64,000 nt of DNA from Azomonas agilis (lineage in GTDB: Bacteria; Pseudomonadota; Gammaproteobacteria; Pseudomonadales; Pseudomonadaceae). Under the pieces are notes generated by a model. It had not been told where the DNA came from, ran no database searches, and saw only the letters and a program-made list of their open reading frames with translations. The first letter of the stretch is position 1. Each line of letters opens with the position of its first letter. Both the position numbers and the translations under genes were made by a program. The stretch spans positions 1-64,000 of the forward strand of contig NZ_VLKG01000007.1 of the NCBI RefSeq assembly GCF_007830255.1. The letters are read 5' to 3'. This document shows, one piece after another, positions 3,520 to 18,700 of the stretch.

Positions 3520-5562
3520 TCAGACACTTAGAATAATGCGCTCTCCTAAGTCAAAACGAGAGACTTGTCGGTTAAGGCAGCCTGCAAGCTCCTCTAAAGT
3601 ATGTGCTTGTTGAGCCGAAATCTGGGCCATGCTCGCATTTTTATCGGCAGTACCTGCGATATTGACCACGTTTTTCGATAGTTCGCCTGAGGCGGCTGAT
3701 TGTTCCGATAGGGATAAAGAGATGCAGGACACTGCTTTAGAGACTTGTTCCGAACTGTCTTTAATGCTGGCAATACTGTTGCCCGCTTGAGCCGCTAAGC
3801 TCACCCCTTGTTCTACTTGCATCACACCGGTTTCAATGCTGTTAACGGCGCTTTGTGTACCGGACAAAATAGTGTGGATCATGCCTTCAATTTCTTGGGT
3901 GGAGGCAGCGGTACTTTGGGCCAGTTTTTTCACCTCGTCGGCCACTACCGCAAAACCCCGTCCAGCTTCACCCGCCCGAGCCGCCTCAATGGCTGCGTTC
4001 AGAGCCAATAGGTTGGTTTGCTCTGCAATACCCCGAATGGTGCCAACGATTTTAGCAATGGCGGCTGATTCTTGGCCCAAACGAGAGACAGAACCTGAAG
4101 CCTCACGAACGGTAGCCGCGATTTTGGCAATACTGCTAACAGCCTGTTCAATAACCTGTGCCCCTTCAGCGGAAGTATGTCCAGCCTGCTGAGCTAGGCT
4201 ACTGGCATCGGTAGCGTTATCGCGCATTTGGCGAATACTCGCTTCCATTTCTTCGATACCTGCGGCCATTTTTGAGGCCGCTTCGCTTTGTTGTTCTGAT
4301 TGAGTGGCCACCTGTTTTGAAGCCTGAGACAGTTTACGAGCACTGTCGCTTAAACGAGTCACCGCGCCTTGGATACCGGCTATGGCTTCGGCCATGCTAT
4401 CGGTCATTTGTCGGGTTGCGTGCAGGAGTTGGCCTACCTCATCTTTATTATTATGACGTGGAATATGCACCGCCAGATTACCCCGTGCGATTTCCTGAAT
4501 AGAGAGCACCGCTTTACCTAAGGGGCGCGTCACCCATTTATGCAAGGTGCGCGATGTGACTACGGCCATAATGGCGGATAAGGCAAGACCTGCCAAAAAA
4601 AGTCGGATGTGGACGGCCCAAGCCTCTGTAGAAAGCTCGTCCGTATAGCAACTGGAGGCGATAACCCAGTTCCATTCTGGGTAGTAGTTAAAAACTGCTA
4701 GTTTGGACTGAGGGCTTGTGCCGGGAGCATCAGGGTTGGCGAACTGGTACTCTATTTGGCCGTTTTTGGCTTGAATCATCTCTTGGATGTAGGCAATGCC
4801 TTGGGGATCTTTGGCGCTGAGTAGGCTTGTACCTTCATGGGTTGGGTGAATGGTCATAGTTCCCGCTGCTTGACCGGCATCTACGGCAAAGATGTAGCCA
4901 GACTGCCCAAAGGTAACACTTTTAATTTTTTCTTTGAGGACGGTCAGCTCGTCAGTGAAATCCAGCCCCACAAAGAGCACAGCCAAAACGCGGCCAGATG
5001 GATCAAGCTGTGGTACATAACGAGTCATGTAGTCTCGTCCCAGTACCTGTACTTTACCGCTAAAACTCTGACCACTTAATAAATGACTTAAAGCCGGATG
5101 ACTTTGACCGAGTAGGGTTCCGGTAGCTAGGCTGCCCTGCTGAGTGCGTAGTGAGGTGGCAATACGGATAAAGTCATCGCCTTGGCGGATAAAAACGGTT
5201 GCCGCACTCCCCGTAGTACCATTGAAGCGATCCAGTATTTGTTGCAGGGCAATCTGCGGCGGACTGTTTAGGCTTGGTTGGGGGCCTGAGGTGATTGTCT
5301 GCAACAAAGGTGTAGCGGAGAGCTGAGCGTGCAAAGCCTGACTTAGCTTTTCAACCGAATGTTTTAACGCAGCGTCGTAGGCATCAATCAGATCAATGGC
5401 TTGCTGATTAGCTCGCTGCATGTTGGTGATGCTTTTGTGTTCTAAAATTCCACTCAACCAATAGGTGGTTAGGGTAGTAGCGATTAACAGCAATCCTGTC
5501 ATCAGAATTGCCTGTGCCGTATTTAGTTTTTGCGCAACAGACCAGTTTTTTGTAAGACGCAC
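3520..5562 (-). CDS. Methyl-accepting chemotaxis protein with a Cache-type sensor
   Basis: This is a transmembrane chemoreceptor. An N-terminal membrane segment is followed by a periplasmic region resembling Cache_3-Cache_2 fusions ([22 protein letters not shown]), a second membrane segment, a HAMP domain ([20 protein letters not shown]) and a cytoplasmic signalling domain with the MCP hairpin tip ([19 protein letters not shown]). The frame is open back to a TTG at 5610. The GTG at 5562-5560 is preferred: AAGGA lies 8 nt upstream, and the resulting N-terminus is a short basic leader before the membrane helix (680 aa; 696 with the TTG). The ligand is unknown; Cache_3-Cache_2 receptors often bind small organic acids. 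No chemotaxis genes are adjacent, and there is no clear methylation-enzyme tether at the C-terminus. Confidence 0.9.
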
Positions 5563-5733
5563 CGCAGGATTCCTTGCACCACAGTCGTAGGAGAGGTGTT
5601 GTGCTGGCAAGGTGACAGATGCCTAGAGGTGGTCTAGGCAGACAATGGCCAGATGAGGGCATAATGCCAAGGTAGCACAAGCCCCATCCTGACGCTCGTC
5701 ATGTCTTTGGTACGCGCCGGTCTCTTTACAGGA

Positions 5734-7002: not shown

Positions 7003-8076
7003 TCAGGCTCTAGTATGGAAGTTTGAGGCTGTTTTAATCGCTTTATCAGAAGACTGATGTCTATTCAGTAGCGCTTCACGGTAGGTTTTAGGCGAGGTTC
7101 CGGTCCAATGTTTAAAGGCTCGGGTAAAGGCTGAGGCTTCGGAAAATCCTAGCTGTTGGGCGATCTGAGCAATGGGCAGCATGGGTTGATTGAGGTAATG
7201 CAAGGCGAGATCACGGCGCATACCTTCTTTAAGACTTTGAAAGCGCGTTCCCTCAGTCAGCAGTTTGCGGCGTAGGGTGCGCTCGGTCAGGTGCAGGGCT
7301 TTGGCGGCGGAAGTGATGTCTGCATTGGCTAAAAAGGCGGGTTGTTTCTCCAGATAATCCATCACGCGCCGGGTATACACCTGATAGTACGCCTGTCGGG
7401 TAAACCAATCTAAAGGTGCGCGTTTTAAATGAGCGTGTAGGGTTTCTGGGGTTTGTACTACGGGAGCATCCAAGAGTGCGGCATCAAACACCAGACGGTT
7501 ATAAGGCGACTCAAATTGAGCGGGGCAGGGAAACATCAAGCGATATTCGGCCTGATGCCAAGGTGCTGAGAATTCAAACTCCACCTGATGCAGGGGAATG
7601 CGTCGCCCAATCAGCCAACTGGGGAAGCGGTGCCAGAGCAGTAAAAAAAAATCCCGTAATAAAAAATGGCTGTCTCTGTCTGGGTCGCTCAGTCGCAGGT
7701 GAAACGAGGCTTCTTGACCCTGAACCTCCAGTATCAATTGCACAGAATCGTTGATCAGATTGTAAAAACGGCTGAGTGTTCGATACACCGAGCCTAAGGT
7801 ACGGCAGCGCACTGCTTGTTTGGCTGCTATAACAAAGACACCATTCCGACATCGTTGATGGGTAAAGCCCATAAATTCATCGTCGGCTTCGCGCCAGACA
7901 GCGCGCATCAATCGGCTAAACTGGTCAGGCGTAATACGCAGGTGGAGGTTGTCCAATAATCGGGGGCTAATACCCGCCTCATGTAGGATTGCTGTTTCGT
8001 TCAGCTGGTATTGCCGAGCTGACTGGATGGCCGCCCGCGCAAAATGTACGGAGATAGAGTAGCGTTCGATGCCCAT
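7003..8076 (-). CDS. AraC-family transcriptional regulator
   Basis: This 357-residue protein has the N-terminal Arabinose_bd-type domain (about 20-210) seen in OruR-like regulators. A C-terminal AraC DNA-binding domain (about 235-338) has two helix-turn-helices: ITSAAKALHLTERTLRRKL (254-272) and PIAQIAQQLGFSEASAFTRA (301-320). It is transcribed divergently from the thiolase gene across a 244-bp gap, with a transporter gene immediately downstream. Two direct repeats in that gap are candidate binding sites. It likely senses a substrate or intermediate of the adjacent oxidation module (inference). There is no obvious ribosome-binding site before the ATG at 8076, which hints at weak translation. 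Confidence 0.9.
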   Translation of the reverse strand: MGIERYSISVHFARAAIQSARQYQLNETAILHEAGISPRLLDNLHLRITPDQFSRLMRAVWREADDEFMGFTHQRCRNGVFVIAAKQAVRCRTLGSVYRTLSRFYNLINDSVQLILEVQGQEASFHLRLSDPDRDSHFLLRDFFLLLWHRFPSWLIGRRIPLHQVEFEFSAPWHQAEYRLMFPCPAQFESPYNRLVFDAALLDAPVVQTPETLHAHLKRAPLDWFTRQAYYQVYTRRVMDYLEKQPAFLANADITSAAKALHLTERTLRRKLLTEGTRFQSLKEGMRRDLALHYLNQPMLPIAQIAQQLGFSEASAFTRAFKHWTGTSPKTYREALLNRHQSSDKAIKTASNFHTRA

Positions 8077-8145: not shown

Positions 8146-8254
8146 CTGTCCGAATATGTCAAACATAAGGCTGGATTTGTTATTGCCGGATTTCTGGTTA
8201 CAGGCAAAGCTAGAGCCCCACTGGAGACACAGGAAAATGACTGTCCGATTTTGT
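8146..8254. promoter_or_regulatory. Candidate AraC-family operator: two direct repeats 95 bp apart
   Basis: CTGTCCGAATATGT (8146-8159) and CTGTCCGATTTTGT (8241-8254) match at 12 of 14 positions, in the same orientation, with starts 95 bp apart (close to nine helical turns). They lie between the regulator and the bktB-like gene it diverges from. AraC-type proteins commonly bind asymmetric direct repeats, sometimes with looping. The downstream copy sits about 70 bp before the thiolase start codon, close to where an activator would contact polymerase. No strong -35/-10 pair is visible after it, as expected for an activator-dependent promoter. Assignment is inference. Confidence 0.55.
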
Positions 8255-8320
8255 ACAGATAGTCTTTTTTGTTAGAGCTGACCTGTTCAGTCCCATATCC
8301 CATAACGGTGGAATACATTC

Positions 8321-9517
8321 ATGTCCATGCAAGCACGAGAAGTGGTCATTGTAAGCGGAGTGCGTACAGCCATCGGTGATTACGGTGGTAGCTTGAAAAA
8401 CTACCATCCCTCCAGTATGGCGGCCTTAGTCGTGGCAGAAGCTGTGAAACGGGCGGCCATTGATCCACAGCAAGTAGGCCATTGTGTCTTCGGTAATGTG
8501 GTGCATTCAGAACCCTTAGATATGTATCTAAGCCGTGTGGCCGCTATTAAGGGTGGTCTACCGCCAGAAACACCGGCACTCAATGTCAACCGTCTGTGCG
8601 GTAGCGGTTTGCAAGCGGTAGTGACAGCGGCTCAGCAAATTCAATTAGGCCTCTGTGATACGGCGGTAGCCGGTGGTGCAGAATCCATGAGCTTGGCTCC
8701 TTATCACCTACCCACGGCCCGTTTTGGTCAACGCATGGGCGATGGAGTCATCATTGACCCTATGGTGGGTGCGCTGACCTGTCCTATCAACCATTACCAT
8801 ATGGGCGTTACCGCCGAAAATCTGGCGGAAAAATACGGCATCACCCGTGAACAGCAGGATCTGTTAGCGGTGGAAAGCCACAGCCGCTCGGAAAAGGCCA
8901 TTGCCCAAGGCTATTTTAAATCCCAGATTTTGCCCATCGAACTGAAAAGCCGTAAAGGCGTGACCCTGTTCGATACCGACGAGCATGTGCGCGCTGGCTG
9001 TAAACTGGAAGACGTGGCTGTACTCAAGCCCGCCTTTAAACGCGACGGCGGTACGGTAACTGCTGGTAACTCTTCCGGCATTAACGATGCGGCAGCGGCT
9101 GTAGTCTTGATGGAGCGCGGCAAAGCCGAGGCTCAAGGCCTGAAGATTATGGCGCGCTTGGTGGACTACCAAGTATCGGGTGTTGACCCTAGCATTATGG
9201 GTATTGGCCCTGTACCGGCGGTGCGTACCCTGTTAGAGCGCAACAAGCTGGGCGTGAATGACATCGACTTTTACGAGCTGAACGAAGCCTTTGCCGCGCA
9301 AGCCTTGGCCGTAGTGCAGCAGCTGGATTTGCCGCGCGCTAAGGTCAACCCCAATGGCAGCGGTATTTCCTTGGGTCATCCTATCGGTGCGACCGGCGCA
9401 GTTCTGACGGTAAAAGCCATTTATGAGCTGGAGCGTATCCAAGGCCGTTATGCCGTAGTGAGCCTGTGCATTGGTGGCGGGCAGGGTATTGCTGCGCTGC
9501 TGGAGCGCGTGGCCTAA
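8321..9517 (+). CDS. bktB: BktB-like beta-ketothiolase / acetyl-CoA C-acyltransferase
   Basis: This 398-residue thiolase cleaves 3-ketoacyl-CoA with CoA to acetyl-CoA and a shortened acyl-CoA. Active residues are C93 (NRLCGSGLQ), H353 (GHPIGATGA) and C383 (SLCIGGGQG), and NEAFAAQ is present. Segments such as EPLDMYL, MGVTAENLAEKY, FDTDEHVR and MGIGPVPA are characteristic of BktB-type enzymes, which accept C4 to medium-chain and odd-chain substrates, rather than classical FadA. It is the first gene of the oxidation cluster and diverges from the AraC regulator. Codon choice becomes more GC-rich after the first third. FadB follows after a 136-bp gap containing a hairpin. It could equally serve as the beta partner of that FadB. 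Confidence 0.9.
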   Translation: MSMQAREVVIVSGVRTAIGDYGGSLKNYHPSSMAALVVAEAVKRAAIDPQQVGHCVFGNVVHSEPLDMYLSRVAAIKGGLPPETPALNVNRLCGSGLQAVVTAAQQIQLGLCDTAVAGGAESMSLAPYHLPTARFGQRMGDGVIIDPMVGALTCPINHYHMGVTAENLAEKYGITREQQDLLAVESHSRSEKAIAQGYFKSQILPIELKSRKGVTLFDTDEHVRAGCKLEDVAVLKPAFKRDGGTVTAGNSSGINDAAAAVVLMERGKAEAQGLKIMARLVDYQVSGVDPSIMGIGPVPAVRTLLERNKLGVNDIDFYELNEAFAAQALAVVQQLDLPRAKVNPNGSGISLGHPIGATGAVLTVKAIYELERIQGRYAVVSLCIGGGQGIAALLERVA

Positions 9518-9653: not shown

Positions 9654-11795
9654 ATGTACAGCGGAAAAGCCATCAGCCTTCAGGCATTGGATTCAGGATT
9701 GGTCGAGCTGGTGCTGGATCTTCAAGGCTCTTCGGTCAACAAACTCGACCAGTTGACCTTGAATGAGTTGGGCGAAGCACTGCAACAGCTGACCGAAGCC
9801 GGGGCCTCGGTACAGGGTCTGCTGATCCGCAGTGCTAAGCCCGCTTTTGTTGTGGGTGCCGATATTACCGAATTCACGACGCTCTTTAAGCGCCCTGAAG
9901 CGGAGCTGTTGCACTGGATGAGTGGCGTGCACGAACACTTCAGCCGCCTTGAGAATCTGCCCTTCCCGACGGTAGCCGCCGTCAATGGTTTTGCCTTGGG
10001 CGGCGGTTTGGAGCTGGCCCTTGCTGCGGACTGCCGCGTACTGGCGGAGGACGCTAAAGTCGGCCTACCGGAAGTTACCCTCGGCATCTGCCCCGGTTTT
10101 GGCGGCACGGTGCGTCTGAGCCGCTTGGCTGACCTGTCCGCTGCTCTGGAGTGGATGACCAGCGGTAAACCTCAGGCTGCTGCTAAAGCCCTGAAGCTGG
10201 GTGTAGCCGATCAAGTGGTGCCCGCTACCGAATTGCAGGATGCAGCTTTAGCTTTGCTGCGTGCCCTTGTTAATGACCCAGCGGCCAGCCGTGCCAACCG
10301 TCAGCGCAAACAGCAAGCCTTGGCCAATACACCCGCCTTGCAAGCGCAGTTGGAAGGCTTGAGCGCCAGCTACACCAAAACGCTGGATGCGCGCTATCCC
10401 GCTGCGGGAGCCATTGTGGCCTTGGTGAGCCAACATGCGACCCAATCCTTTGGCACCGCCTTGGAAATGGAGGCGCAAACCTTCGCTCAGTTGGCGAAGA
10501 CGACAGCCTCTCAGTCCTTAATCGGTTTGTTCCTCAGCGACCAATCCTTAAAGCGTAAAGCCAAGGGCTGGATCGCCAAGGCTGATAAGGTGCAGCAAGG
10601 CGCAGTACTGGGCGCAGGCATTATGGGCGGTGGCGTGGCTTATCAGTCAGCGCTGAGCGGCGTGCCCATCATCATGAAGGACATCCGCGACGAGGCTTTG
10701 GCGCTAGGCAGCAAAACGGCCAGCAAAGCCTTGGATAAGCTGATTGAAAAGGGCCGTTTGGACGAAGCCGGTAAGCAGCAAGTACTGGCGCGCATTCACC
10801 CTGAATTGGAATACCAAGACTTCGAGCGCGTGGATTTGGTGGTCGAAGCCGTGGTCGAGAACCCAAAGATCAAGGCGGCGGTGCTGTCGGAAGTGGAAGG
10901 CTTGATGCGCCCCGATGCCATCCTGACTACTAACACTTCAACCATTTCCATTGATCTGCTGGCCAAAAGCCTAAAGCGCCCAGAGTTGTTCTGCGGCATG
11001 CATTTCTTCAATCCGGTGCCTTTAATGCCGCTGGTAGAGGTGATTCGTGGCAGTCAAAGCAGCGAAAAAACCCTGGCCACTACGCTGGCCTATGCCGTCG
11101 CCATGGGTAAAACCCCCATCGTGGTGAAGGATTGCCCCGGATTTTTGGTTAACCGTGTGTTGTTTCCCTACTTCAACGGCTTTAACCGGCTGCTGAAGGA
11201 TGGCGTGGACTTCGAGCGCATTGATCGGGTGATGGAAGCTTTCGGTTGGCCTATGGGCCCAGCTTATCTGGCAGATGTAGTGGGCATTGACACCATGGTG
11301 CATGCCGACCAAGTGCTGCAAGTGGGCTTCCCCGACCGTATGGGCCACGAGGGCGAGCCGATTATGGAAGCCCTGTTAGCCGCTGGAGCCTTAGGGCAGA
11401 AAAACGGTAAGGGCTTTTATGAGTACGGCGTCGATGCCCAAGGCAAGCGCACGAAAACCCCTTCAGCGGCGGCTCATGCTTTGATTGCTGAGCGGGTACA
11501 GGCTAAACCAGAAGTGTCTGATGAAGACATTATCGACCGGCTGATGATCCCCATGTGCTTGGAGTCGGTGCGCTGCTTGGAAGAGGGCATCGTCGACAGC
11601 GCCGAAGAAGTGGACATGGGCTTGATTCTGGGCTTGGGCTTCCCCCGCTTTAGGGGCGGTGCCCTGCGCTACATCGACCACCTAGGCTTGGCGGTGTTTG
11701 CGCAAAAAGCCGTCACACATTCGGCCCACGGCGGACTCTATCAATTGACTCCCGGCTTTAACGCCCGTCTGCAAAACGGCCAGACTTATTTTTGA
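9654..11795 (+). CDS. fadB: FadB: fused enoyl-CoA hydratase / 3-hydroxyacyl-CoA dehydrogenase
   Basis: This multifunctional alpha subunit of the fatty-acid oxidation complex hydrates 2-enoyl-CoA and oxidises L-3-hydroxyacyl-CoA with NAD+. The N-terminal crotonase domain has the catalytic glutamates E120 and E140 (GGGLELAL, GLPEVTLGICPGFGG). The dehydrogenase domain has its nucleotide loop GAGIMGGG at 320-327 and catalytic H450 (GMHFFNPVPLMPLVEV). Two 3HCDH C-terminal domains follow, ending near FRGGALRYIDHLG. The length (713 aa) is normal. The frame is open upstream, but the ATG at 9654 is chosen because AAGGA precedes it by 7 nt and the family N-terminus (MYSGKAI) starts there. The order thiolase-then-fadB is the reverse of the usual fadBA. 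Confidence 0.93.
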   Translation: MYSGKAISLQALDSGLVELVLDLQGSSVNKLDQLTLNELGEALQQLTEAGASVQGLLIRSAKPAFVVGADITEFTTLFKRPEAELLHWMSGVHEHFSRLENLPFPTVAAVNGFALGGGLELALAADCRVLAEDAKVGLPEVTLGICPGFGGTVRLSRLADLSAALEWMTSGKPQAAAKALKLGVADQVVPATELQDAALALLRALVNDPAASRANRQRKQQALANTPALQAQLEGLSASYTKTLDARYPAAGAIVALVSQHATQSFGTALEMEAQTFAQLAKTTASQSLIGLFLSDQSLKRKAKGWIAKADKVQQGAVLGAGIMGGGVAYQSALSGVPIIMKDIRDEALALGSKTASKALDKLIEKGRLDEAGKQQVLARIHPELEYQDFERVDLVVEAVVENPKIKAAVLSEVEGLMRPDAILTTNTSTISIDLLAKSLKRPELFCGMHFFNPVPLMPLVEVIRGSQSSEKTLATTLAYAVAMGKTPIVVKDCPGFLVNRVLFPYFNGFNRLLKDGVDFERIDRVMEAFGWPMGPAYLADVVGIDTMVHADQVLQVGFPDRMGHEGEPIMEALLAAGALGQKNGKGFYEYGVDAQGKRTKTPSAAAHALIAERVQAKPEVSDEDIIDRLMIPMCLESVRCLEEGIVDSAEEVDMGLILGLGFPRFRGGALRYIDHLGLAVFAQKAVTHSAHGGLYQLTPGFNARLQNGQTYF

Positions 11796-11876: not shown

Positions 11877-13637
11877 ATGAGCGACTACAAACACCCCTAC
11901 CGCGATGCCCTCTTTGTCCTCAACGAGCTGGTGGACTTTGACAAGCTCTGTGCTGAGCACGGCTTTGCGGATGCCAATCTGGAGCTGGTGTCAGCGATTT
12001 TTGACGAGGCCGGTAAGCTGGGCTCGGAAGTGTTAGCGCCGCTCAACCGTGTGGGCGATACCCAAGGTGTGAGCCTGACGGAGAAGGGCGTGCAGGAAAC
12101 TGCGGGTTTTGCCGAAGCCTACCATCAGTTCCAAGAGAGCGGCTGGCCGTCCTTGACCGCACCGGAAGCCTTTGGTGGGCAAAATCTGCCTAACGTGGTG
12201 GGTACAGCGGTCAACGAAATTTGGCATTCGGCCAACCTGTCTTTCGCCCTGTGCCCCATGCTGACTCAAGGTGCGATTGAGTCCATCCTGCACCATGGTT
12301 CAGACGCGCTGAAAGAGGCCTATCTGTCACGTTTGGTCAGCGGCGAATGGACCGGCACCATGAACCTGACCGAGCCGGATGCTGGTTCGGATTTGGCAGC
12401 GGTGAAAACCCGTGCCGTGCCTAATGGTGACCATTATCTGATCACCGGCCAGAAAATCTTCATCACCTGGGGCGACCACCAGATGACGGACAACATCATT
12501 CATTTGGTGTTGGCCCGCCTGCCCGATGCGCCCTTTGGCGTGAAGGGGATTTCCCTGTTCATCGTGCCCAAGTTCCTGCCTGATGGCAGCCGCAACGACG
12601 CGCAGTGTGTGTCGCTGGAGCATAAGCTCGGCATCCACGGCAGCCCGACTTGCGTGATGAGCTTCGGTGATAAAGGCGGTGCCATTGGCTATCTGGTCGG
12701 TGAGGCGCACAAAGGCTTGGCCTATATGTTCACCATGATGAACCATGCGCGTCAGGGCGTGGGTTTGCAGGGCCTGTCCATTGCTGAGCGTTCTTATCAG
12801 CAAGCGCTGCAATACGCTAAGGATCGTCTGCAAGGCACCAACAAAGACGGCAGCCGTTACCCCATCATCAAGTTCCCCGACATTCGCCGCATGCTGATGG
12901 TGATGAAGTCCGCCACCGAGGCCATGCGTGCCTTGGCACTGGTGTCTGCCGCCGAGATTGATCGTGCCCACGGCAGTGAAGGTGAGGCCGCGCAAACCCA
13001 TCAAAACCGTGTCGAACTGCTGACCCCCATCGTTAAGGGCTGGCTGACCGAGCTGGCGCAGGAAATCACCTATCTGGGCACCCAGATTCACGGTGGCATG
13101 GGCTTTATCGAGGAAACCGGCAGCGCCCAGCATTACCGCGATGCGCGTATCCTGACCATCTACGAAGGCACCACTGGCATTCAAGCGCTGGATTTGGTCG
13201 GCCGTAAAACGCTGGTCAACAAGGGCGAGCATCTGGCCAGCCTGCTGGAAGAAATCGGCCAAACCCTGTCGGCTTTGGAGGCTTCGGGTCAGTTCCCGGT
13301 ACAGGCCAAGGCTCTGCGCGCCTCACTGGCCGACGGCCAAGCAGCGCGTCAACTGCTGCTGGACAAGTCTGCTGAGGATGCCGCGCTGGCCGGTAGCATC
13401 AGCGTCAACTATATGATGCTGTTCGGCTACCTGTGTGGCGGTTGGCTGATGAGCCAAGCAGCCCTCAAAGCTCAAGCGCTGCTGGAGGCTAACTCCGGTG
13501 ATCCGGCGTTCCTGAACGCCAAGCTCACCACCAGCCGCTTCTACGCCGAGCATCTGCTGACCCGTACCGGCTCCTTGCTGGCGGTGATTCAGGCCGGTAG
13601 CGCGAGCATTCTGGCCCTGCCGGAAGATCAGTTCTAA
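11877..13637 (+). CDS. Acyl-CoA dehydrogenase of the long DmdC/FadE5-like type
   Basis: This 586-residue FAD enzyme introduces the 2,3 double bond into acyl-CoA and passes electrons to ETF. It has the short AcylCoA_DH_N segment at its start (YRDALFVLNELVDFD), the conserved flavin region (LTEPDAGSDLAAVKTRA, KIFITWGDH), and the catalytic glutamate E430 in IYEGTTGIQALDL. A C-terminal helical extension of about 120 residues distinguishes this class from the ~380-residue short-chain enzymes. AGGAAA lies about 8 nt before the ATG. It sits between fadB and etfB, so electrons can go directly to the co-encoded flavoprotein. Chain-length preference cannot be read. Confidence 0.92.
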   Translation: MSDYKHPYRDALFVLNELVDFDKLCAEHGFADANLELVSAIFDEAGKLGSEVLAPLNRVGDTQGVSLTEKGVQETAGFAEAYHQFQESGWPSLTAPEAFGGQNLPNVVGTAVNEIWHSANLSFALCPMLTQGAIESILHHGSDALKEAYLSRLVSGEWTGTMNLTEPDAGSDLAAVKTRAVPNGDHYLITGQKIFITWGDHQMTDNIIHLVLARLPDAPFGVKGISLFIVPKFLPDGSRNDAQCVSLEHKLGIHGSPTCVMSFGDKGGAIGYLVGEAHKGLAYMFTMMNHARQGVGLQGLSIAERSYQQALQYAKDRLQGTNKDGSRYPIIKFPDIRRMLMVMKSATEAMRALALVSAAEIDRAHGSEGEAAQTHQNRVELLTPIVKGWLTELAQEITYLGTQIHGGMGFIEETGSAQHYRDARILTIYEGTTGIQALDLVGRKTLVNKGEHLASLLEEIGQTLSALEASGQFPVQAKALRASLADGQAARQLLLDKSAEDAALAGSISVNYMMLFGYLCGGWLMSQAALKAQALLEANSGDPAFLNAKLTTSRFYAEHLLTRTGSLLAVIQAGSASILALPEDQF

Positions 13638-13699: not shown

Positions 13700-13759
13700 G
13701 CGCCCTGAATCTGGCCGGTTGTGGTTTAAACACAGCCCGCCCCAGAGTGGATGTGCCCT

Positions 13760-14509
13760 ATGAAAGTCTTGGTAACGGTCAAGCGTGTGATTGACTACAA
13801 CGTCAAAGTTCGGGTGAAAGCGGATCACAGCGATGTGGATCTGGCCAACGTGAAAATGGCCATGAACCCCTTCTGTGAGATTGCGGTAGAGGCCGCCATC
13901 CGTTTGAAAGAAGCCGGAATTGCCACAGAGGTAGTAGCCGTCTCCGTGGGTTCAGCCAGCTGTCAGGAGCAACTGCGTACCGCCTTGGCGCTGGGTGCGG
14001 ATCGGGCGATCCAGATCGACACTCCGGACAACCCCGAATCCCTCGAAGTGGCCAAGCTGCTGGCCGCGCTGATCCAGGCCGAACAGCCAAGCCTCGTGAT
14101 TACCGGCAAGCAGGCCATCGACACCGACAACAACCAGACCGGGCAAATGCTGGCTGCGCTGTTGGATTGGCCGCAAGCCACCTTTGCTTCGGCCATCAGT
14201 CTGAGTGGCGAGCAACTGGAAGTGACCCGCGAAGTCGACGGCGGCTTGCAAACCCTATCCCTGTCCCTACCGGCCTTGGTGACTACGGATTTGCGCCTGA
14301 ACGAGCCGCGCTACGCCTCTCTGCCCAACATCATGAAGGCCAAGAAAAAGCCGCTGGAAGTCAAAACTCCAGCTGAGCTGGGTGTCAGCCTCAAAGCCCA
14401 TACACGGCTGATTAAGGTCGAAGCACCGGCAGAGCGCCAAGCGGGGATCAAGGTAGACAGCGTCGAGGCGCTGGTGGACAAGCTGCGTAACCAAGCGAGG
14501 GTGATTTGA
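13760..14509 (+). CDS. etfB: Electron transfer flavoprotein beta subunit
   Basis: This 249-residue protein forms a heterodimer with EtfA and carries AMP and part of the FAD site. It accepts electrons from acyl-CoA dehydrogenases. Family signatures are the N-terminus [20 protein letters not shown], the region [19 protein letters not shown], and the recognition-loop stretch [15 protein letters not shown]. An in-frame ATG lies three codons earlier (13751), but the canonical MKVLV start is at 13760. Its stop overlaps the etfA start by one base (TGATG), so the pair is translationally coupled. Confidence 0.95.
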
Positions 14510-15438
14510 TGAGCATTCTGGTCATTGCCGAACACGACAACCGCGCCTTAAACAGCGTCACCCTGAACGCCCTGCAAGCGGCTAAAGCCATTGGCGGCGA
14601 GATTCAAGTCTTGGTTGCGGGGCATCACTGCCAAGCCGTAGCTGAACAAGCCGCTGCGGTAGCGGGTGTGAGCAAAGTGCTGTTGGCCGATAGCCCTGCC
14701 TATGAGCATCGCTTGGCGGAGCCGCTGTCCAAACTGATCGCCACCCTGGGTAAGGATTACAGCCATGTGTTGGCTCCGGCCAGCACCAGTGGCAAAAACC
14801 TGATGCCACGGGTCGCGGCTCTGCTGGACGTGGCACAAATCTCCGACATTACCGCCGTCCTGAGTAGCGATACGTTCCAGCGGCCTATTTATGCCGGTAA
14901 CGCCGTGGCCACGGTGCAGTCCTTAGATGCCATTAAGGTACTGACCGTCCGTAGCACCGCTTTTGAAGCCGTAGCTGCCAGCGGTGGTGCCGCCGCAGTG
15001 GAGGCCGTGACCGCCTCAGCTGTTCCCGAGCGCAGCCGTTTTGTCAGCGAAGCTCTGGCTGTCTCTGATCGCCCTAACTTGGGCAGCGCTAAGGTGGTGG
15101 TCTCCGGTGGTCGCGGTCTGGGCAGCGCGGAAAACTTTGCCCTGATCGAGCAGCTGGCGGACAAGCTGGGCGCAGCGGTGGGTGCTTCCCGTGCCGCTGT
15201 GGATGCAGGCTTTACCGCCAACGATCGCCAAGTAGGACAGACCGGCACCATCGTTGCACCGGAGCTGTATCTGGCGGTGGGTATTTCCGGGGCCATTCAA
15301 CATCTGGCGGGGATGAAGGAATCCAAGATCATCGTCGCTATCAACAAAGATCCGGAAGCACCGATTTTTCAGGTGGCCGACTACGGCTTGGTGGCGGATT
15401 TGTTCGAGGCCGTGCCCGAACTGATGCGCCAACTCTGA
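14509..15438 (+). CDS. etfA: Electron transfer flavoprotein alpha subunit
   Basis: This 309-residue partner of EtfB binds FAD. The C-terminal FAD domain shows the family hallmarks ([57 protein letters not shown]). The ATG overlaps the etfB stop. A TTG one codon earlier exists but is less likely. It passes electrons to the ETF-ubiquinone oxidoreductase encoded 10 bp downstream. Confidence 0.96.
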
Positions 15439-15448
15439 GGATTGGCTG

Positions 15449-17098
15449 ATGCGCGAATCCATGGAATTTGATGTGGTGATTGTCGGCGCGGGGCCTGCGG
15501 GCCTTTCCGCTGCCTGTCGCCTGATGCAGCAGGCTGCCGAAGCAGGGCAGTCGCTGGAAGTTTGCGTCGTGGAAAAGGGGTCAGAAGTTGGCGCACATAT
15601 CCTCTCGGGCGCGGTCTTTGAACGCCGCGCCCTAGAGGAACTTTTTCCCGATTGGCAGGAGCGTGGCGCACCGCTGAATACGGCGGTCACTGAAGACCGG
15701 CTGTACTTGCTGCGCGATGAACAACAGGCCCTGCGCATTCCCGATGCGCTGGTGCCGCCCAGCTTGCACAACCCCGGCAATCATGTGATCAGCTTGGGCA
15801 ATCTGGTGCGCTGGCTGGGCGAGCAGGCCGAAGCTTTGGGGGTACAGATTTTCCCCGGCTTTGCCGCCACCGAGGTGCTGTACCACGAGGATGGCCGCGT
15901 GAAGGGCGTGGCCACCGGCGATATGGGTGTGGCCGCTGACGGCAGCCACAAACACGGCTTTACCCCCGGTATTGAGCTGCATGCCCGTTACACCCTGTTT
16001 GCCGAAGGCTGTCGCGGCAGTTTGGGCAAACAGCTGATTCAGCAATTCGACCTCAATGCCGGCGCTGATGCCCAGCATTACGGTCTCGGTATTAAAGAAC
16101 TGTGGGACATTGATCCGGCGTTGCATCAACCCGGTTTGGTGGTTCACGGTTCTGGCTGGCCGTTGCAGGGGGAGAGCGGTGGCTTTTTTCTCTACCACGG
16201 GGATAACCATCAAGTGGTGGTGGGGCTGATTGTGGATCTGAATTACCACAATCCCCATCTGTCACCCTTTGAAGCCTTCCAGCAGCTCAAACAGCATCCG
16301 GTATTGAGTGCTTATTTAAGCGGCGGCAAGCGCTTGTGCTATGGCGCACGGGCCATTGCCAAGGGCGGCTTTAACTCCTTGGGTAAAGCCGGATTCCCCG
16401 GTGGCTTGCTGATCGGCTGTGAGTCGGGAACCCTCAACTTCGCCAAGATCAAAGGCAGCCATACGGCGATGAAGTCGGGAATACTGGCCGCCGAAACAGT
16501 GTTTGCCGCCTTGACTCAGGAGGCATCCGGAACCGATTTGCAGGCAGATTTTAGCGCTCGTTTCCAAGCCTCGTGGCTGTATCAGGAGCTGTATCAGGCG
16601 CGTAACTTCGGCCCTGCGCTGCATAAGCTCGGCTCGACCCTGGGTGGTGCCTTCAACCTGCTGGAGCAGCGCTTAGTAGCCGGAAAATGGCCGCTGACCC
16701 TGCATGATCGCCAAGCTGATCACCTGCAATTGCAGACCCTGCAAGAATCTGCGCCCATCCGCTATCCCAAGCCGGATGGCGTGCTGAGTTTTGATCGTTT
16801 GAGTTCGGTGTTTTTGTCCAACACCAACCACGAGGACAATCAGCCCTGTCACCTGAAGTTGGCCGATCCGGATTTGCCCTTGCAGGAAAATCTGCCCCTC
16901 TACGACGAGCCGGCCCAGCGTTATTGTCCGGCGGGCGTGTATGAGGTGATCCGCGCTGAAGACAACACGCCACTGCGGTTGCAGATCAACAGCCAAAACT
17001 GTGTGCACTGCAAAACCTGCGACATTAAAGACCCAGCGCAGAACATTACTTGGACCTGTCCGGAAGGTGGCGGTGGGCCGAATTACCCCAATATGTAG
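15449..17098 (+). CDS. Electron transfer flavoprotein-ubiquinone oxidoreductase
   Basis: This 549-residue membrane-associated flavo-iron-sulfur enzyme moves electrons from reduced ETF to ubiquinone. The N-terminal dinucleotide motif is VVIVGAGPAGLSAA. The C-terminal 4Fe-4S ligands are C518, C521, C524 and C537 (NCVHCKTCDIKDP, TWTCPEGGGGP). Intermediate family segments such as GAHILSGAVFE and GFPGGLLIGCESGTLNFAKIKG are present. A GAGG sequence lies 8 nt before the ATG. With etfBA it completes the route from acyl-CoA dehydrogenation to the quinone pool inside one cluster. Confidence 0.96.
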   Translation: MRESMEFDVVIVGAGPAGLSAACRLMQQAAEAGQSLEVCVVEKGSEVGAHILSGAVFERRALEELFPDWQERGAPLNTAVTEDRLYLLRDEQQALRIPDALVPPSLHNPGNHVISLGNLVRWLGEQAEALGVQIFPGFAATEVLYHEDGRVKGVATGDMGVAADGSHKHGFTPGIELHARYTLFAEGCRGSLGKQLIQQFDLNAGADAQHYGLGIKELWDIDPALHQPGLVVHGSGWPLQGESGGFFLYHGDNHQVVVGLIVDLNYHNPHLSPFEAFQQLKQHPVLSAYLSGGKRLCYGARAIAKGGFNSLGKAGFPGGLLIGCESGTLNFAKIKGSHTAMKSGILAAETVFAALTQEASGTDLQADFSARFQASWLYQELYQARNFGPALHKLGSTLGGAFNLLEQRLVAGKWPLTLHDRQADHLQLQTLQESAPIRYPKPDGVLSFDRLSSVFLSNTNHEDNQPCHLKLADPDLPLQENLPLYDEPAQRYCPAGVYEVIRAEDNTPLRLQINSQNCVHCKTCDIKDPAQNITWTCPEGGGGPNYPNM

Positions 17099-17206: not shown

Positions 17207-18700
17207 ATGTGTTCTGATCGTATTCGTCTGGATTCTCTGCGTAGCAAAATCGTCACCGCTGAACAAGCGGCTGCCTTGGTTAAGGATGGCATGGTCGTGG
17301 GCATGAGCGGCTTTGGTGGCGGTGGGGATGCCAAGGTCATCCCGCGTGCCATGGCTGAGCGCGCCCGTCAGGAAGCCTTAAAGATCACTCTAATTACGGG
17401 TGCCAGTTTGGGCAGCGGGCTGGACGGCATTATGAGCGAGGCCGGTTTACTGGCACGGCGTATGCCCTTCCAAGGCGATCCGGTGCTGCGTAAAGCCATC
17501 AACGAGGGCAAGGTGATCTTTATCGATCAGCACCTGTCCCATGTGGCCGAATTGCTGCGCCAAGGCTCATTGCCTGCACCCGATGTGGCGGTGATTGAAG
17601 CCGCAGCCATTACCGAACAAGGCCATATTGTGCCCACCGCCTCGGTTGGGAACTCAGCCTCGCTGGTGCAGATGGCCAAGCAAGTCATCGTAGAGCTGAA
17701 CCTCTCTAGCAGCCCGCATCTGGAAGGTTTGCACGATATTTATCTGCCGGCTGCCCGCCCTCAGCGTCAGCCTATTCCACTGATTAACCCCAGCGATCGC
17801 ATCGGCGCTCCCGCCATTGCCGTTGATCCTGAGCGCATTGCGGCCATTGTGCTGTGCGAAAGCCCAGAGTCCGCCGCTACTATTTTGCCGCCGGATGACG
17901 AAACCCAAGTCATCGCCAACCACCTGATTCATTTCTTCGAGCAAGAGGTAGCGCAAGGCCGTTTGCCCGCCAACCTAGGCCCGCTGCAAGTGGGTGTGGG
18001 CACCATTGCCAACGCAGTGATGTCGGGTTTGCTGAACGCACCCTTCACCGATCTGGAGCAGTATTCCGAGGTGTTGCAGGACTCCACCTTTGAGCTGATG
18101 GATGCCGGCAAACTGAAGTTCGCTTCCGGTTGCTCCATTACCCTGTCTGCCGACTGCGGCAAGCGCGTGTTCCCTTCCTTGGCGGATTACAAGGATCGGC
18201 TGGTGCTGCGTCCGCAGGAGATCTCCAACCATCCGGAAATCGCCCGGCGTTTGGGCGTGGTGGCGATCAACACCGCGTTGGAGTTCGACATTTACGGCAA
18301 CGTCAACTCCACCCATGTCTGCGGCACCAAGATGATGAACGGCATCGGCGGTTCGGGGGACTTTGCCCGTAATGCGCGTTTGACGGTCTTTGTCACCAAG
18401 TCCATCGCCAAAGCCGGAGCCATCTCCAGCGTAGTGCCTATGGTCAGCCATGTGGATCACACCGAGCACGATGTGCAGATTCTGGTTACCGAGCAAGGCT
18501 TAGCCGATCTGCGTGGCCTAGCGCCGCGTGAGCGCGCACGGGTGATCATCGACAACTGCGTGCATCCGGATTATCGCCCGGCACTGAATGCCTACTTTGA
18601 GGAGGCCTGTGCCCGTGGTGGTCAAACGCCTCATTTATTAGAGCAGGCTTTTGATTGGTACACTAACTTAGAACAACGCGGCCATATGTTGTCCTACTAA
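17207..18700 (+). CDS. Acyl-CoA:carboxylate CoA-transferase (AarC/ScpC/Cat1 family)
   Basis: This 497-residue class I CoA-transferase, of the acetyl-CoA hydrolase/transferase type, moves CoA from succinyl-CoA or acetyl-CoA to an acid. Marks of the family are GMSGFGGGGDAKVIP near the N-terminus, GVGTIANAV (263-271), the YSEVLQD motif with the presumed catalytic glutamate E288, CGTKMMNGIGGSGDFARNA, and EQGLADLRGLAPRERA. GAGG lies upstream of the ATG. No acyl-CoA ligase is in the cluster, so this enzyme is the likely activation step (inference). The exact donor/acceptor pair (acetate, propionate, butyrate) is not readable; older annotation would call it acetyl-CoA hydrolase. Confidence 0.9.
   Translation: MCSDRIRLDSLRSKIVTAEQAAALVKDGMVVGMSGFGGGGDAKVIPRAMAERARQEALKITLITGASLGSGLDGIMSEAGLLARRMPFQGDPVLRKAINEGKVIFIDQHLSHVAELLRQGSLPAPDVAVIEAAAITEQGHIVPTASVGNSASLVQMAKQVIVELNLSSSPHLEGLHDIYLPAARPQRQPIPLINPSDRIGAPAIAVDPERIAAIVLCESPESAATILPPDDETQVIANHLIHFFEQEVAQGRLPANLGPLQVGVGTIANAVMSGLLNAPFTDLEQYSEVLQDSTFELMDAGKLKFASGCSITLSADCGKRVFPSLADYKDRLVLRPQEISNHPEIARRLGVVAINTALEFDIYGNVNSTHVCGTKMMNGIGGSGDFARNARLTVFVTKSIAKAGAISSVVPMVSHVDHTEHDVQILVTEQGLADLRGLAPRERARVIIDNCVHPDYRPALNAYFEEACARGGQTPHLLEQAFDWYTNLEQRGHMLSY

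Follow-up and report, generated by a model that had tools for sequence, protein, structure and literature searches.

Half-site I2 of AraC overlaps the -35 element. The sites of XylS (TGCA-N6-GGNTA-N6-TGCA-N6-GGNTA) and of MtlR (AGTGC-N5-AGTAT-N7-AGTGC-N5-AGGAT) have been set out in a published account, of which the accessible portions are used here (PMC4514859). For GliR (PA3027), an AraC-type regulator of glycerolipid genes in Pseudomonas aeruginosa that carries an N-terminal ligand-binding domain and is encoded divergently from its operon, the available sections of the report describe one motif over the -35 plus another upstream required for full activation (YYGGCGHTDTYSGMC and GGAYAWCGCCG; PMC8151288). 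The same sections name Rns as an AraC activator with a downstream site (PMC8151288). PsrA, FadR and FadP, which regulate fatty acid degradation, belong to the TetR and GntR families, and the word AraC is absent from the main text of the comparative regulon paper that treats them, the part of that source considered here (PMC5343134). No description of the regulon presented below was found in the literature searched, subscription papers being mostly outside its scope.

The window (the whole stretch of Azomonas agilis DNA analysed, 64,000 nucleotides) carries a gene for an AraC-family regulator divergent from a cluster of acyl-CoA oxidation genes (Table 1). With a probability of roughly 0.85, and on the strength of sequence comparisons, we propose that positions 8146-8188 in the intervening gap serve this AraC-family protein as operator, that the protein activates a regulon for acyl-CoA beta-oxidation, and that the same positions form part of a promoter through which it would switch on the bktB-fadB-acyl-CoA dehydrogenase-etfBA cluster. 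The proposal builds on computed conservation, on position relative to genes and to the -35 and -10 elements, and on co-occurrence with the regulator.

Table 1. Features of the araC/bktB locus, in window coordinates.
Feature	Coordinates	Strand	Evidence or remark
Conserved element, putative operator (R1 positions 2-44)	8146..8188	+	CTGTCCGAATATGTCAAACATAAGGCTGGATTTGTTATTGCCG; E 1.6e-13 in window; alignment A1; actP copy
Left repeat CTGTCCGAATATGT	8146-8159	+	Left 14-mer of the original prediction
Proposed half-site 1, TGTCCG-N4-TGTCAA	8147..8162	+	Columns 3-18 of 36 thinned sites; contains most of left repeat
Proposed half-site 2, AGGCT-N5-(T)GTTATTG	8168..8185	+	21 bp after half-site 1; overlaps -35
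Predicted -35, TTGCCG (consensus TTGNNG)	8183..8188	+	Columns 39-44, 45 thinned sites
Predicted -10, AAAGCT (consensus [GC]ANACT)	8206..8211	+	Columns 62-67, 45 thinned sites; 17-bp spacer
Right repeat CTGTCCGATTTTGT	8241-8254	+	Predicted bktB leader; accessory half-site or chance; 3.2 bits with R1; out of register in relatives
AraC-family regulator, Arabinose_bd (PF12625) + HTH_18, proposed binder	7003..8076	-	Domain matches; co-occurrence with element
BktB-type beta-ketothiolase, first gene after element	8321..9517	+	NF006552 (subfamily) 636.8 bits, above cut-off 565
fadB, beta-oxidation complex alpha subunit	9654..11795	+	NF008727 995.8 bits, above cut-off 870
Acyl-CoA dehydrogenase	11877..13637	+	PF12806, PF00441, PF02770, PF02771
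etfB, electron transfer flavoprotein beta	13751..14509	+	Below each model's cut-off; family level only
etfA, electron transfer flavoprotein alpha	14506..15438	+	Below each model's cut-off; family level only
FixC/ETF-ubiquinone-oxidoreductase-like FAD protein	15449..17098	+	NF007450, NF007542 below cut-off
Succinyl-CoA:acetate CoA-transferase (ScpC type)	17207..18700	+	NF053853 912.2 bits, above cut-off 500

The conserved element and its AraC-family neighbour

The original prediction had singled out two 14-bp repeats between the regulator gene and the oxidation cluster. Their coordinates bear out its description of a matched pair: the copies are identical at 12 of 14 positions, lie on the same strand and are 95 bp apart from start to start (9.05 turns at 10.5 bp per turn), within the gap of 244 bp that separates the start codons of the AraC gene (ATG at 8076) and of bktB (ATG at 8321). 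The accompanying statement that the window holds no other close copy is also accurate at up to three mismatches, the left-copy 14-mer finding only these two repeats; yet 3.64 matches would be expected by chance, so that rarity in the window is uninformative. Given the first copy, a second one agreeing at 12 or more of 14 positions would arise in the gap with a chance of 0.00035 on the same strand and 0.00115 on either strand, and any direct pair of 14-mers equally alike would arise in such a gap with a chance of 0.08 (all in order-1 Markov sequences). Genome-wide, the degenerate 14-mer has five matches at up to one mismatch versus nine for its backward control, and is therefore not distinctive alone; its uniqueness was rejected as evidence. 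At zero mismatches three matches are found in the genome, namely the two repeats and one upstream of DUF485-actP.

The left repeat turns out to be the left end of a longer, 43-bp element. The regions upstream of close AraC orthologues (alignment rows L003-L008, L037-L050 and L092, with L044 as the exception) have in common a block of some 45 bp that starts at this repeat, and 16 of its 46 aligned columns are invariant in 19 sequences. Profile R1, a sequence-only model built from the AraC-flanking regions of relatives with the actP copy kept out, finds the element in the window with an E value of 1.6e-13 and the right repeat at 3.2 bits with an E value of 6.2, which makes the 43-bp element the distinctive feature. 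The held-out copy preceding DUF485-actP (acetate symporter) in the same genome was recovered at E 3.2e-7 and is the only other genome match at E 0.1 (150 of 1194 first-look candidates were scored with R1).

The divergently encoded protein belongs to the AraC/XylS family (PF12833, 65 bits against a cut-off of 33.6; PF00165, 33.7 against 26.6) and carries an N-terminal Arabinose_bd domain (PF12625, 142.4 bits, residues 28-206). Its scores with the GliR and QhpR equivalog models, 132.6 bits (residues 15-335) and 170.1 bits, lie below the respective NCBIfam cut-offs of 570 and 250. In the first HTH, residues T264, R266 and R269 are conserved at 98-100% in 43 close orthologues, while 63 distant homologues have S264 (97%), Q266 (87%) and R269 in 48%; the two groups were split by identity and such group-specific residues are partly expected. 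Distant homologues such as L009-L031 and L051-L088 show about 33-42% identity. Among the downstream genes, the BktB-type thiolase scores 628.6 bits with the BktB equivalog NF042999, under the cut-off of 725. The fadB ATG is placed at 9654, the mechanical ORF beginning at 9471 and the NF008727 match starting at ORF residue 62. The FAD protein further downstream is of a FixC/ETF-QO-like type. A Cache-domain receptor gene (3520-5610) lies two genes from araC and is without a site at E 0.2.

The element and the close AraC orthologue occur together across genomes. Among 115 relatives, the block lies beside AraC in all seven genomes with a close orthologue (at least 55% identity), at E 3.4e-10 or better, and the other 108 have no block match at E 1e-3; the seven genomes having provided training rows, it is the absence in the other 108 that is informative. 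Across the order (390 genomes), matches reaching E 1e-3 occur in six genomes: that of the window, four in which the match adjoins an AraC homologue (40-57% identity), and G277, where one match adjoins a 48% AraC homologue and another precedes an acyl-CoA ligase-like gene. The family to which Marinobacterium jannaschii belongs is represented by 116 genomes, and in it the element was found in 36 of the 45 genomes with a close orthologue (at least 46% identity) and in none of the 71 without one, 18 of which have a distant homologue (Fisher p 7e-22, uncorrected for kinship; no more than 13 of the 36 had contributed training rows). Kinship inflates these co-occurrence statistics, many of the 59 sites in the family coming from closely related Amphritea, and three genomes of the order set (G106, G324 and G378) recur in the family set under other handles, as judged by coordinates. 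A laxer rescan of the nine orthologue-bearing genomes without a site gave weak matches in five (E 0.0017-0.09), three of them immediately upstream of araC, and no match at E 0.1 in the remaining four. The region adjoining AraC in M. arenosum (L044) has no good element (24/44), and bktB in that genome has one (E 0.0017).

Two further arrangements were observed. On contig C9 of M. jannaschii (L116), a second AraC paralogue (51% identity to P0001) is accompanied by a separate block that precedes an acyl-CoA dehydrogenase gene, so that regulator and operator have seemingly been duplicated together. In a genome of the same genus as the window's (L007, G002), bktB between operator and fadB is apparently a broken remnant (no tblastn match; remnant judged by eye), and the operator block is kept at E 3.4e-10.

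Predicted target genes, promoter and half-site layout

The nearest panel gene to the 59 family sites is etfB for 19, bktB for 15, an acyl-CoA dehydrogenase gene for nine, fadB for nine (one of which, L189, matches only from query residue 312 on), an acyl-CoA ligase gene for four and a chemotaxis receptor gene for one, two sites preceding an unplaced hydrolase-like ORF. Targets were taken as the nearest panel gene on the same strand within 700 bp downstream, using a panel of 15 query proteins rather than full gene calling, so that an intervening small gene could escape. By this rule, 56 of the 59 sites precede bktB, fadB, acyl-CoA dehydrogenase, etfBA or acyl-CoA ligase genes, including 20 that are not beside araC; 36 of the 59 have a divergent araC on one side and the target on the other, and 23 do not. 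Weak sites were found before bktB in two species, M. arenosum and A. balenae, and before etfB in M. nitratireducens. Matches with E > 0.01 are also seen beside genes of no evident connection, named by eye, for example those for ribosomal proteins (L125) and for lipopolysaccharide-export-like permeases (L128). An operator-like site stands about 600 bp upstream of an OprD-family porin gene in two g17 genomes (L119 and L124; E 7.5e-5 in G044 and 0.066 in G019). The chemotaxis receptor-like gene of M. jannaschii has its site 180 bp upstream (L126, E 2.3e-4), and in two genomes (L172 and L181) the site is about 126 bp before the hydrolase-like ORF, named by eye, that adjoins araC.

Past the block, the columns exceeding 0.35 bits in 45 thinned sites, araC-linked and unlinked together, are 52 (weak), 62, 63 and 65-68. 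Across the 45, the consensus TTGNNG-N17-[GC]ANACT stands at a fixed distance, the TTGNNG being the end of the block itself. Its first three positions are T in 45, T in 44 and G in 41 of the 45, with G at column 44 in 34; in the downstream hexamer, A63 is found in 42, A65 in 39, C66 in 35 and T67 in 42. The -10 of the window has G at column 65, and that of the actP copy (L118) is identical (AAAGCT). Judged by sequence, the putative operator runs into the -35, with a -10 at 17-bp spacing, as would one of the AraC-type class II, and the layout is what one would expect if an activator sat over the -35 of a sigma-70 promoter; transcription is predicted to start near 8218. The sigma-54 consensus is GG-N10-GC, and a TGG-N10-GC spacing can be seen by eye in the right half of the block in the window, but neither the GG nor the GC is conserved in the Amphritea and Marinobacterium rows, whereas a sigma-70-like pair is conserved over the 45 thinned sites. 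We have rejected a sigma-54 promoter on this ground and consider it extremely improbable.

Of the 28 offsets at which the block was compared with itself, 21 gave the top direct self-similarity (permutation p 0.01, uncorrected), offsets 10 and 27 coming next at 0.02. Offset 21 yields the layout TGTCC-N5-TGTCAA-N5-AGGCT-N5-tGTTATTG, in which the partner of the left half-site is likely to be the adjacent half-site about 21 bp downstream. Inverted self-alignments of the block likewise outscore the permutations at two shifts (p < 0.001), and the direct geometry is for this reason drawn from what is usual in the regulator family; the block may instead contain an internal dyad. Such inverted self-similarity would suit a symmetric dimer of another family, and, together with the existence of sites that are not beside araC, it could be taken to mean that the element belongs to a different, unlinked regulator, araC being merely a member of the same regulon. 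We give this explanation little credence, as the element is missing from every one of the 71 family genomes without a close AraC orthologue and a divergent araC adjoins 36 of the 59 sites.

For the AraC-family activator that we favour, we infer binding, activation, effector and half-site geometry as follows. A dimer would occupy a pair of direct half-sites spaced by about 21 bp, of which the downstream member would overlap a weak -35 (8183-8188). Once bound, it would bring sigma-70 RNA polymerase to a -10 (8206-8211) that is itself poor. The likely trigger for activation would be a short- or medium-chain acyl compound or its CoA ester. Targets of this protein in trans would be actP in the genome of the window and, in relatives, bktB, etfBA, acyl-CoA dehydrogenase and acyl-CoA ligase genes that are not beside araC.

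The right repeat and looping

The original prediction read the two repeats, about nine turns apart, as a pair through which a looping AraC-type regulator would control both divergent promoters. Its left half has held up, in that the left repeat lies in an element that follows AraC across genera and precedes oxidation genes; the matched looping pair has not. Same orientation, helical phase and the conditional chance of 0.00035 speak for such a pair. Yet the right copy reaches only 3.2 bits, matching just the left third of the R1 profile, and with the predicted start would sit in the transcribed leader, about 24 bp in. Nor was a second site found to be kept at a helically phased distance. The actP site has nothing like the right repeat at +95 and only TGTCGG at +37; same-genus L007 likewise has nothing like it at +95; and M. 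jannaschii L092, which keeps araC/bktB, has no other TGTCCG-like word from -110 to +130 of the block. Conservation of both repeats wherever the divergent pair is retained, which the prediction entailed, thus fails for the right repeat at L092 and in the g17 genomes. The sole counter-evidence on this point comes from those four g17 genomes, which also keep araC/bktB: CGTCCGAT occurs at +85/+86, about one turn nearer, in all four, and TGTCCG at +95 in one. Across 27 thinned araC-linked sites, TGTCC is found at +95 in two, one of them the window's. We therefore judge the looping pair improbable.

Short fragments being all that score, the right repeat was also rejected as a second complete operator. 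A lineage-specific downstream half-site that modulates the promoter without defining it strikes us as a doubtful reading too, if a better one than the looping pair; such a half-site may be the relic of a duplicated operator, or a roadblock or autoregulatory site. In its favour are the low conditional chance of the second copy (0.00035) and a further short match, to model positions 29-38, at 8265-8274 (0.6 bits), but the scores are very low and, outside the genome of the window, the half-site is in register only in one g17 genome. We see in the right repeat no more than an accessory half-site of the window's lineage.

A phased partner suited to looping or autoregulation does exist in this group of regulators, elsewhere than at the position first put forward. 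Among 33 araC-linked sites, after de-duplication, TGTCC/GTCCG occurs at -63 in 15, at -62 in three and at -64 in one; the 28 sites unlinked to araC have it at none of the three positions (five of the 28 with E 0.001-0.1). The araC-linked operators of relatives thus often have an upstream half-site at a constant, in-phase distance, 63 bp being 6.0 turns upstream of the block. Under stricter thinning, the -63 half-site is present in 10 of 27, and no other of the 1024 5-mers, whatever its flanking offset, ranks as high as TGTCC does at -63. The half-site lies anywhere from 0 (L117, L175) to 37 bp (L163) from the araC start but at an almost fixed distance from the block, a pattern suggesting contact with the latter. 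The -63 half-site is absent from the window, L007 and L092; the g17 genomes have TGTCC at -56/-57. Ten Amphritea sites (L038, L039, L041-L043, L045-L048 and L050) show two further TGTCC-like half-sites, at -43 and -24, between the -63 half-site and the block.

Relation to described systems

If the proposal is right, an uncharacterised regulator gains a concrete predicted operator, promoter and target set in some forty genomes. The targets suggest acyl compounds as the class of inducer, acetate uptake being a target in the genome of the window. Looping becomes testable, in that a half-site six turns away is kept at the regulator's own gene and at 0 of the 28 other target sites examined. A bolder version, to which we would assign rather less than even odds, is that this is an undescribed, widespread AraC-type master activator of beta-oxidation, replacing or overlaying PsrA/FadR and acting through a portable operator/-35/-10 cassette; the half-site six turns upstream of the block, present only at its own gene, would then form an autoregulatory loop. 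The window's lineage would have lost this half-site and may have improvised a downstream one. The kind of object is in any case ordinary, an AraC-type activator site, in a regulon of which we found no description.

Compared with the PsrA, FadR and FadP regulons, as far as the accessible parts of the comparative paper describe them, the metabolic role is the same, but the candidate regulator here is AraC-type and falls outside the TetR and GntR families. Rns, from its mention in the GliR report, would be an earlier example of a functional site located past the start, although the downstream copy in this locus is not conserved. The proposed layout resembles AraC at I1-I2, XylS at Pm and MtlR at PmtlE, in so far as the available portions of these accounts go: half-sites of two boxes each, repeating every 21-22 bp or so, upstream of the -35 or next to it. 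The box sequences differ from those of all three, the targets here are acyl-CoA oxidation genes, and the geometry in our case is deduced. With respect to the accessible account of GliR, the protein of the window scores under the GliR cut-off and both motif sequences and target genes differ; the two nevertheless share domain type, divergent arrangement and the predicted placing of a motif over the -35, and by arrangement GliR is the closest studied relative that we found.
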